64,000 nt of DNA. It comes from Lysobacter niastensis (GTDB lineage: Bacteria > Pseudomonadota > Gammaproteobacteria > Xanthomonadales > Xanthomonadaceae). The position numbers were made by a program, and so were the translations under genes. The notes beneath the pieces were generated by a model. It ran no database searches. It worked only from the letters and a program-made list of their open reading frames with translations, and was not told where the DNA came from. Shown here piece after piece: positions 41,876 through 43,693 of this stretch. Within the stretch, counting starts at the first letter, position 1, and each line of letters starts with the position of its first letter. The stretch is taken from positions 186,001 through 250,000 of the forward strand of contig NZ_JADLZT010000002.1 of the NCBI RefSeq assembly GCF_015453285.1, given 5' to 3'.

Positions 41876-42325
41876 TCATGGACGCGGCATGACCGCGAGG
41901 GTCAGGCGCGAGATGCAGACCATGCGGCCGCGTTCATCCTCGATGCGGATCTCCCAGACCTGGGTGCGGCCACCGACGTGCAGCGGCCGCGCGGTGCCGG
42001 TGACGATGCCTTCGCGCGCGCCGCGCAGGTGGTTGGCATTGATCTCGATACCGACGCAGATCTCGTCTTCGCGGATGCAGAGCATCCCGGACATGCTGCC
42101 GAGCGTCTCGGCCAGCAGCACGGAGGCGCCGCCGTGGAGCAGCCCGTACGGCTGCCGGGTGCGAGCGTCGACCGGCATGGTGGCGCGCAGGTAGTCGGGG
42201 CCGATCTCGGTGAAGGCGATGCCGAGCGCTTCCATGGCCGTGCCCTTGGCCATCGCATTGACCGCGTCGAGCGTGGTGGGACGGAACAGCGGCTGGGCCG
42301 CGTCGGGGGGAGTCGTCGTGGTCAT
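41876..42325 (-). CDS. Hotdog-fold thioesterase (PaaI/MenI-like)
   Basis: 149 residues. The conserved stretch YGLLHGGASVLLAETLGSMS carries the LHGG motif and the catalytic acidic residue of the 4HBT-II/PaaI type; GIEINANHLRGAREGIVTGT and GRTQVWEIRIEDERGRMVCI complete the fold. It fits the acyl-CoA thioesterases of the 1,4-dihydroxy-2-naphthoyl-CoA (MenI-like) or YdiI/YbdB class, but the substrate cannot be read from sequence. First of the thioesterase-PlsC-YheT-TPR run on the minus strand. The 5' side faces the end of the small-protein array. Confidence 0.9.
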   Translation of the reverse strand: MTTTTPPDAAQPLFRPTTLDAVNAMAKGTAMEALGIAFTEIGPDYLRATMPVDARTRQPYGLLHGGASVLLAETLGSMSGMLCIREDEICVGIEINANHLRGAREGIVTGTARPLHVGGRTQVWEIRIEDERGRMVCISRLTLAVMPRP

Positions 42326-42433: not shown

Positions 42434-42493
42434 ACAAGAAAGATCCCCGCGGCCGACGCGCCTGAAGCCGGGGTGGCGCGTCGGACCGCGGGG
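42434..42493 (-). terminator. Long-stem terminator of the small-protein array
   Basis: CCCCGCGGCCGACGCGCC (42445-42462) pairs with 42475-42493 over 18 bp with one bulge; on the minus strand the stem is followed by ATCTTTCTTGTT. It lies 18 bases after the last small gene. Confidence 0.8.
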
Positions 42494-42510
42494 CGGAGGA
42501 ACTGGTCGGA

Positions 42511-42705
42511 TCAGGCGCAGCGGAAGCGGATCTGCGCCCAGTCGGTGGTGTAGCGGCGGGTGCAGCCATAACCGCTGCTCCGGCCGTAGCCGATGCCGAA
42601 GTCACGTTCGCGGCGAACCAGGCGGTCGGCAGCCGGGGCGTTGACCGGGGCGCGAGCGGGAAGCGGCTGGACGGTGGACAGTTCGGTGCGGAGCAGGGCG
42701 TTCAT
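42511..42705 (-). CDS. Small basic protein of a tandem paralogous array, copy 1 (64 aa)
   Basis: Third gene in transcription order. A variable, Pro/Ala-rich N-terminal half (MNALLRTELSTVQPLPARAP) precedes a near-invariant 34-residue end (RRERDFGIGYGRSSGYGCTR then RYTTDWAQIRFRCA). AAGGA lies seven bases before the ATG, the same spacing as in the other two copies, which supports coding. No signal peptide or membrane helix; strongly basic. No family recognised. Its coding and flanking sequence is almost identical to the neighbour's over ~120 bases, at an offset of exactly 270, showing a recent duplication. Confidence 0.8.
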   Translation of the reverse strand: MNALLRTELSTVQPLPARAPVNAPAADRLVRRERDFGIGYGRSSGYGCTRRYTTDWAQIRFRCA

Positions 42706-42780
42706 GGCGAAATCCTTGGGGCCCTCGGGCCGGTGTTTCAGAGATCCGCCGGACGGCTGGATCTCAGGAGTTGAAGCGGA

Positions 42781-42972
42781 TCAGGCGCAACGGAAGCGGG
42801 TCTGGGCCCAGTCGCTGGTGTAGCGGCGGGTGCAGCCATAACCGCTGCTGCGGCCGTAGCCGATGCCGAAGTCACGTTCGCGGCGAACCAGGCGGTTGGC
42901 GGCCGGGGCAGCCGGGGCGCGGGCCGGAAGCGGCTTGGCGTTGAAGAGATTGGTGAGGAGCGAGGCGTTCAT
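42781..42972 (-). CDS. Small basic protein of a tandem paralogous array, copy 2 (63 aa)
   Basis: Middle gene. MNASLLTNLFNAKPLPARAP, then the same core as copy 1 (RRERDFGIGYGRSSGYGCTR and RYTSDWAQTRFRCA, differing from copy 1 at only two residues). AAGGA precedes the ATG by seven bases. Two Cys, one near the middle of the core and one before the final Ala. Gaps to the neighbours are 75 and 55 bases. Function unknown; the conserved Arg/aromatic/Gly core could bind nucleic acid or be a peptide precursor, but nothing in sight decides this. Confidence 0.8.
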   Translation of the reverse strand: MNASLLTNLFNAKPLPARAPAAPAANRLVRRERDFGIGYGRSSGYGCTRRYTSDWAQTRFRCA

Positions 42973-43027
42973 GTCGGGATCCTTGGGGGGAGAGGACGCA
43001 GGGACGAAGATGTGTGGGGTTGCGGAC

Positions 43028-43222
43028 TCAGACGCAGCGGAAACGCGCGGGGGCCCACTGGTCGGTGTAGCGGCGCTGGCTGGCATAGCCACTGCTGTTG
43101 CCATAGCCGACGCCGAAATCGCGTTCGCGATGGACGTGGCGGACCGGGGAAGCAGCCACTGCCGCGGCTACCGCGCGACTCGGGCTGGAGTTGGTCGACT
43201 GCAGGTTGCGGGAGGCGTTCAT
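43028..43222 (-). CDS. Small basic protein of a tandem paralogous array, copy 3 (64 aa)
   Basis: First gene in transcription order and the most diverged. Ser/Ala-rich N-terminus (MNASRNLQSTNSSPSRAVAA), then HRERDFGVGYGNSSGYASQR and RYTDQWAPARFRCV. It keeps RERDFG-x-GYG-x-SSGY, RRYT, W-A and RFRC but lacks the internal Cys, so only the C-terminal Cys is invariant. AGGA precedes the ATG by seven bases. A longer in-frame extension upstream crosses the 73-bp repeats and is rejected. The promoter would lie in the AT-richer 43225-43330 stretch. Confidence 0.8.
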   Translation of the reverse strand: MNASRNLQSTNSSPSRAVAAAVAASPVRHVHRERDFGVGYGNSSGYASQRRYTDQWAPARFRCV

Positions 43223-43415
43223 GGTGGTGTCCTGGCGGGGTGTGAACTGGTGTGTTGGTAAAGTACAACACCACTTCGATATTGACATGGGCCGGAAGTC
43301 ACCCCACCGAAGTACTAGTCCTGATTCTGGTCGGCGGGGCGGGCACAACATCGGAACACCCATAGAGATGGGCCCCAAGGGCAATCGGTTGCCATGACTG
43401 ACGACAGGGGGTGAG

Positions 43416-43693
43416 GCGAGCCACTGGCTCGCGCATCGCCGAACGCCGCCGCGCCATGCGCGGTGGCCGGGAAAAAGGCGGAGCCGCCTGCGAGCCACTG
43501 GCTCGCGCCCCGCCGAACGCCACCGCCACGCGCGGTGGCCGGGAAAAAGGCGGAGCCGCCTGCGAGCCACTGGCTCGCGCCCTGCCGAACGCCGCCGCGC
43601 CATGCGCGGTGGCCGGGAAAGGGCGATGCTGCTTGCGAGCCACTGGCTCGCGCCACGCCGAACGCCGCCGCGCCATGCGCGGTGGCCGGGGAA
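43416..43693. repeat. Four tandem copies of a ~73-bp hairpin-rich repeat
   Basis: Copies begin at 43416, 43490, 43562 and 43635 (periods 74, 72, 73). Each holds three inverted repeats: GCGAGCCACTGGCTCGC, a CCGC.GCGCCATGCGCGG dyad, and GGCGGAGCCGCC (the last lost or changed in copy 4). Copies differ at a few positions. The 553-bp gap between the small-protein array and the phospholipase gene otherwise has no gene; frames through the repeat on both strands are artefacts of its period. Confidence 0.9.

Follow-up and report, generated by a model that had tools for sequence, protein, structure and literature searches.

A conserved C-terminal tail in a tandem array of small basic proteins and in a DUF1232 protein of the Lysobacter lineage

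The small-gene array and its neighbourhood

We analyzed a stretch of 64,000 nucleotides (hereafter the window) of Lysobacter niastensis contig NZ_JADLZT010000002.1, whose minus strand carries three tandem small ORFs for proteins of 64, 63 and 64 aa, each followed by TGA. Gene 3, the promoter-proximal one, occupies positions 43031-43222 (43028..43222 with its stop codon), gene 2 positions 42784-42972 (42781..42972) and gene 1 positions 42514-42705 (42511..42705); a profile of their common core matched them with E values of 1.0e-23, 4.0e-22 and 2.0e-22, respectively. Each ATG is preceded at a distance of 7 nt by an AGGA ribosome site (43230..43233, 42980..42983 and 42713..42716 for genes 3, 2 and 1, all on the minus strand), and the three products have in common a C-terminal core of roughly 34 residues, RERDFG-x-GYG-x-SSGY...RRYT...RFRC. 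The paralogous three-gene array with equal ribosome-site spacing that had been proposed from the letters of this DNA (the original prediction) was therefore confirmed.

Genes 1 and 2 are 83% identical. The near-identity claimed for them holds over 120 bases at an offset of 270, of which 115 match, but not over the whole gene-1 frame, where an ungapped comparison gave only 137 of 195. In a tree of 30 genes, many forks of which were weak, genes 1 and 2 appeared as sisters with 100/100 support, and sister copies were also found within two other loci, L110 (100/99) and L113 (99/94), suggesting that copies have repeatedly been duplicated or homogenised within lineages. The comparison of copy numbers revealed two array copies in each of the 7 congeners in the sample, compared with three in the window. 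The proposal that the array is still expanding therefore needs qualification, since gene conversion would look identical; the pair is the result of lineage-specific duplication or gene conversion. Two further members had been missed by the original prediction: a fourth small-gene copy, dispersed on another contig of the same genome, and a DUF1232 protein that ends in the same tail.

Downstream of gene 1, a hairpin at 42445..42493 (minus strand; -42.3 kcal/mol, z -4.42) is a probable terminator. The hairpin behind the proposed single long terminator is thus real, but a pattern scan reported no terminator-like site, its loop limit being 8 and this loop 12, and hairpins 3' of the relatives (53 of 77) were about as common as at random positions within those loci (137 of 219), that is, barely above chance. 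With regard to stop codons, TAG ended 1 of the 112 small genes vs 61 of 313 pooled comparison genes (Fisher p 4e-8); this apparent avoidance was dropped because the contrast was driven by the PLD gene (31 of 61), and yceI had no TAG in 54 genes.

The array is flanked by genes for a PLD-domain protein (PF13091, PF00614; 43776..45773) and a PaaI-like 4HBT thioesterase (41876..42325), the latter next to a PlsC-like acyltransferase gene (PF01553; 41025..41879), all on the minus strand. Counted over the window and 79 further loci (80 together), these three neighbours were present in 61, 67 and 60 loci, respectively, an alpha/beta hydrolase in 58, YceI in 54 and DUF1232 in 17, and the usual order was yceI-PLD-(small genes)-4HBT-acyltransferase. 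Some loci were cut at contig ends, parts were inverted in L127, L130, L135 and L149, and the small gene of L155 had the opposite orientation. The five conserved neighbours tested were lipid- and envelope-type genes. Where a DUF1232 gene was present, it preceded the 4HBT gene in 9 loci, followed it in 7, and in L137, in which 4HBT was not found, stood between the PLD and acyltransferase genes; 14 of the 17 loci also held a small gene, and L137, L153 and L159 held none. Sixty loci had both PLD and 4HBT genes, with one small gene in 32, two in 21, three in 5 and none in 2. We also picked 12 genomes that were matchless in a single-sequence search with the small protein. All 12 proved to contain the PLD protein, and in the ten loci whose fetched stretch included both PLD and 4HBT (L211-L219, L221) the two genes adjoined each other with no core match between them. 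The interval that separates the PLD gene from the promoter-like element contains a tandem repeat at 43416-43690 with a 72-bp unit (3.8 copies, 90% matches); its unit opens with the palindrome-like GCGAGCCACTGGCTCGC and is REP-like.

A conserved element upstream of the array

Two sequence blocks precede gene 3 on the minus strand. Block B, GGTGTTGTACTTTACCAACACACC (43249..43272), consists of an inverted repeat, GGTGT-N14-ACACC, around a -10-like TAnnnT (43260-43265), and block A, GGTGACTTCCGGCCCATG (43286..43303), lies 5' of it, at a distance of 15-18 nt in 69 of 71 distinct sequences. Allowing at most 3 mismatches of 17, block B was found in 71 of 77 loci vs none of 77 reversed regions, all of which had at least 5 mismatches, and 5 of 1,540 shuffled regions had at most 4. 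This stricter count was used because at 6 mismatches, which 72 of 77 loci satisfied, shuffled regions also passed in 121 of 1,540 cases. The inverted repeat and the TAnnnT were nearly invariant across loci, and from its sequence block B might be a -10 region under an operator. Block B was absent from L098, L121, L128, L129, L134 and L164, and also from L036 and L043.

In the L. niastensis genome, block B had one exact site and four others at 3 mismatches, the reversed control pattern giving 2 matches. Block A had its only exact copy here; at up to 3 mismatches it gave 34 matches vs 27 for the reversed control, so it is not specific alone and names no regulon. Relatives of block B were also observed 5' of a small gene in two other families (L204, L205 and L206), in stretches with no PLD or 4HBT match; in one further genome from these families (L203) such a relative was looked for and not found. 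The joint occurrence in other families and contexts suggests that element and gene are inherited as a unit.

A sigma-70 consensus scan detected no site. An RNA element was considered and rejected: Rfam had no match in the window, and the 5' region 43223-43275 folded no better than its shuffles (z -0.15). In addition, the variants of the inverted repeat were non-compensating by eye, and the element was therefore read as DNA. A conserved uORF was likewise rejected, since the element was read in three different frames among relatives and is hence non-coding.

Occurrence and conservation of the tail

Single-sequence search gave matches in 129 of 197 genomes of the family, representing 39 of 54 genera, and the core profile matched 61 of 397 genomes in a sample of the order, four of them belonging to two other families; both counts include DUF1232 tails. 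In class and phylum samples of 369 and 398 genomes, only the window's own genome matched (none of the 368 and 397 others at E<=0.001), these samples containing few other genomes of the same order (at least 4 and 9) and about 18-20 candidates being scored per genome, so that weak matches may have been missed. Within these genome samples, the small-protein family appeared only inside one order. A scan of named genomes, which demanded the pattern G[VIT]GYGxSSGY, yielded 187 relatives, the best 80 of which (79 loci) were kept and came mostly from Lysobacter, Luteimonas, Vulcaniibacterium, Thermomonas, Arenimonas and unplaced bins. The plasmids searched gave no match. A tblastn match (E 5e-3) was found in DQ115827.1 (L223, 1-1547), labelled Cyanobacteria phage AS-1 contig_20; with a GC content of 71% and a small-protein relative behind a block B-like element, it is probably a mislabelled bacterial contig. 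JABFVP010000569.1 (L095), binned as Cupriavidus, holds a Lysobacter-type locus with its neighbours and is probably mis-binned.

The claim that these proteins belong to no known family was upheld in the collections searched. The three window genes matched 0 Pfam families at E<=10, and 100 relatives gave a best E of 0.011 (one member) with no DUF1232 match at E<=0.1. NCBIfam had no match for the small proteins, and PHROGs (best E 0.14) and PDB sequences (best E 0.55) nothing convincing; the open-licence literature contained nothing on the family or motif, and no paper with its motif strings. The small proteins of the window thus belong to a conserved and widespread family that has a promoter-like element of its own and lies outside the curated models searched (Pfam and NCBIfam); its lineage counts antibiotic-producing soil bacteria (Lysobacter) among its members.

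Conservation was analyzed in 112 small genes from 77 loci and in 17 DUF1232 carriers. Counted from the C-terminus, position -4 was Phe in 107 of the small proteins and in all carriers, and position -3 was Arg in 104 of the small proteins. Position -2 was Cys in 66 of them, Phe in 31, Val in 9, Met in 3, Leu in 2 and Ile in 1, and Phe (16) or Val (1) in the carriers, so that each of the 112 small proteins and 17 carriers had Cys or a hydrophobic residue there. The last residue was free (A, R, G, C, V and others), with Ala in 72 of 112, and the Arg and aromatic positions of the tail were conserved. Of 129 small and DUF1232 frames, 128 ended with the core (two distant relatives extended 1-2 residues beyond it), and the distance from GYGxSSGY to the C-terminus was 18 residues in 100 of 127 proteins. 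Because the scan required GYGxSSGY, its invariance among the 79 named loci partly reflects how these were chosen; the secondary copies and the genome profile search are free of this bias, and the secondary copies include the variants GYGRSHGY and GIRYGGSSGY.

Two supposed hallmarks did not survive this comparison. First, the C-terminal Cys is neither single nor invariant: the products of genes 1 and 2 both contain an additional Cys, and at position -2 Cys is one of several tolerated non-polar residues, which argues against a catalytic or linked Cys and removes it as an argument for function. Second, size is not fixed, the relatives having a median length of 63 aa and a range of 50-86 aa, apart from one 108-aa row with a doubtful start call (start codons were assigned by rule and are incorrect in some cases, namely L098, L105 and one in L166).

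The proposal of a functional peptide itself was supported by the cross-species analysis of selection. In three groups of 6, 8 and 6 orthologues, pooled pN/pS was 0.20, 0.23 and 0.33 for the core vs 0.64, 0.74 and 1.06 for the N-terminus. Purifying selection acts on the core and far more weakly on the N-terminus. When paralogues and distant pairs were included (4,104 of 4,186 pairs), the core gave a median dN/dS of 0.57, a far weaker signal, with values below 0.5 in only 40% of pairs. Synonymous change in the core was low; a constraint at the RNA level was not adopted, as the core codons are mainly AGC, GGC, CGC and TAC and codon bias could explain it.

This distribution of constraint bears on the proposal of a secreted precursor, or more generally of a RiPP-like modified peptide, which we consider highly improbable. 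Small size, tandem copies and the near-terminal Cys in 66 of 112 relatives would fit such a peptide, but a variable N-terminus with a conserved C-terminus is the inverse of the conservation found in RiPP precursors, and the Cys is dispensable. Moreover, only 2 of 111 small proteins had a hydrophobic, signal-like stretch (Kyte-Doolittle >1.6 over 15 residues; no membrane-like stretch in 109), and none of the five neighbours tested encodes a maturation enzyme.

The same core also ends a DUF1232 (PF06803) protein of about 203 aa. Two carriers of this type scored 34.3 and 35.4 bits against PF06803 (gathering cut-off 23), a model of 37 positions whose match leaves the tail uncovered. In the L. niastensis genome, the tail-bearing DUF1232 gene (L053, contig C15) lies between prfB and recJ, on a different contig from the array, and among 119 genomes of the family, alignments of the DUF1232 query ran through the tail (query residue >=205 of 209) in 51. 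Two adjacent tailless DUF1232-like paralogues were observed on contig C1 of the same genome (about 555734-557170, L054), and their ends, LFRVG and LFYVH, are faintly tail-like. A third type of carrier, of about 80-92 aa (L036, L043 and L098, dispersed copies), has a different N-terminus resembling L[AV]xxxGLxAP, and its gene precedes that of a large regulator by about 400 bases; in L098, the one scanned, this regulator has AAA_16, TPR and LuxR-type domains. Thus, at least three kinds of N-terminal part precede the tail: a variable leader (about 25-30 aa), the longer N-terminus beside the LuxR/AAA regulator and the helical DUF1232 body.

A shared tail raises the question of whether the small proteins act in trans as mimics, regulating the DUF1232 protein through competition with its tail. 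The presence of both genes in the L. niastensis genome and in 14 of 80 clusters would agree with this. However, small genes were present in four genomes with no match to the DUF1232 query (G013, G020, G026 and G046), which makes it unlikely that the small proteins are solely DUF1232 regulators; in three others (G015, G090 and G116), the only DUF1232 matches ended before the tail. The structural model of the carrier, in which tail confidence is low, also predicted no docking of the tail on its own body. On balance, regulation by mimicry seems quite unlikely.

Possible functions of the tail

Structure prediction gave no confident fold for the tail in either type of protein. AlphaFold2 modelled the small protein (100 sequences) with a pLDDT of 59.8 and a pTM of 0.14, and the DUF1232 carrier as a helical body with a pLDDT of about 80-89 in most blocks and values below 50 for tail residues 177-192 and 200-203; the latter model was based on a thin alignment of 17 sequences, and one of five models was clearly best. 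Comparison of the DUF1232 model gave a best E of 0.64 with Foldseek, and with VIA a best Z of 6.2 (3.9 A over 108 residues), which is in the common range for helical bundles.

Shared as it is with the C-terminus of a larger protein, the conserved tail has the appearance of a reusable tag for binding. We tentatively propose, with a probability of about 0.4, that it is an intrinsically disordered C-terminal docking motif, approximately R-x-R-D-F-G-x-G-Y-G-x-S-S-G-Y-x5-Y-x3-W-x4-F-[RK]-hydrophobic-x-COOH, and that the array genes encode minimal carriers of it. The tail would dock on one conserved cytosolic partner, either a protein or an RNA-protein complex, and the alternation of Phe at -4 and a hydrophobic residue at -2 at a free C-terminus would suit beta-strand addition. 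The small proteins might occupy or recruit this partner in bulk, and the DUF1232 protein might reach it through the same tail. Bulk supply could come from a putative dedicated, regulated promoter and from codon usage: the array leans 0.06 bits per codon toward ribosomal-region genes, a value reached by 3 of 95 background chunks, compared with a median of 0.09 for the ribosomal-region genes left out singly (genes called by a simple rule), although gene 3 alone had no such bias (-0.068). As expected of a docking peptide, the segment terminates carriers that are unrelated to one another. However, a foldless prediction is no proof of binding, and a degron, an RNA-binding segment or a tunnel peptide might also be found on three carriers.

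Direct binding of nucleic acids by small RNA-chaperone-like proteins, whose Arg/Gly/Tyr-rich tail would contact RNA or DNA and may autoregulate the genes through the upstream element, is possible but rather doubtful. The small proteins are basic (median pI 10.87, charge +5.3) and conserve Arg and aromatic residues, and block B, which has no second site below 3 mismatches in the genome, is found together with the gene in other families. On the other hand, no convincing similarity to nucleic-acid-binding families of Pfam was found, and positions -2 and -4 point to contact through the C-terminus and not to an effect of charge.

The strict C-terminal position, the hydrophobic -2 residue and the frequent terminal Ala would also be compatible with an adaptor-free degron or localisation signal that directs its carrier to a protease or to a particular place in the cell. 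Yet the last residue is free, and a degron requires far fewer than the roughly 34 residues, including an internal GxGYGxSSGY, that are conserved here. We therefore regard this explanation as unlikely.

Finally, the tail might fill the ribosomal exit tunnel at the stop codon and slow termination, which would make the small genes self-contained translation brakes and equip the DUF1232 protein with such a brake at its C-terminus. The tunnel holds a length similar to that of the conserved C-terminal part, and such a brake would fit the free N-terminus and the near-fixed distance to the stop. The choice of stop codons gave it no support, and no constant downstream gene was found, this being 4HBT, DUF1232 or the LuxR/AAA regulator, with no PLD or 4HBT match in L203-L206. 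A tunnel peptide appears very unlikely, and the least likely beside direct nucleic-acid binding and a degron. Translation arrest peptides, as described in PMC10987492, are likewise small ORFs with a conserved C-terminal part, but the present genes differ from them in the variable downstream gene, the tandem copies and the occurrence of the same tail on a 203-aa protein.

Returning to the docking motif, the closest relationship is with the DUF1232/YkvA-like proteins, whose member of about 203 aa in this lineage ends in the same tail, whereas the small proteins have no DUF1232 domain. The common tail therefore merges two puzzles, the small proteins and the DUF1232 protein, into a single testable question, namely what binds the tail. 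In general character, and with no sequence similarity claimed, it resembles the SSB tail, the FtsZ C-terminal peptide and encapsulin cargo tags, which are also disordered, conserved C-terminal segments carried by otherwise different proteins. Unlike in those systems, much of the present family consists of little beyond the tail, encoded in tandem copies.
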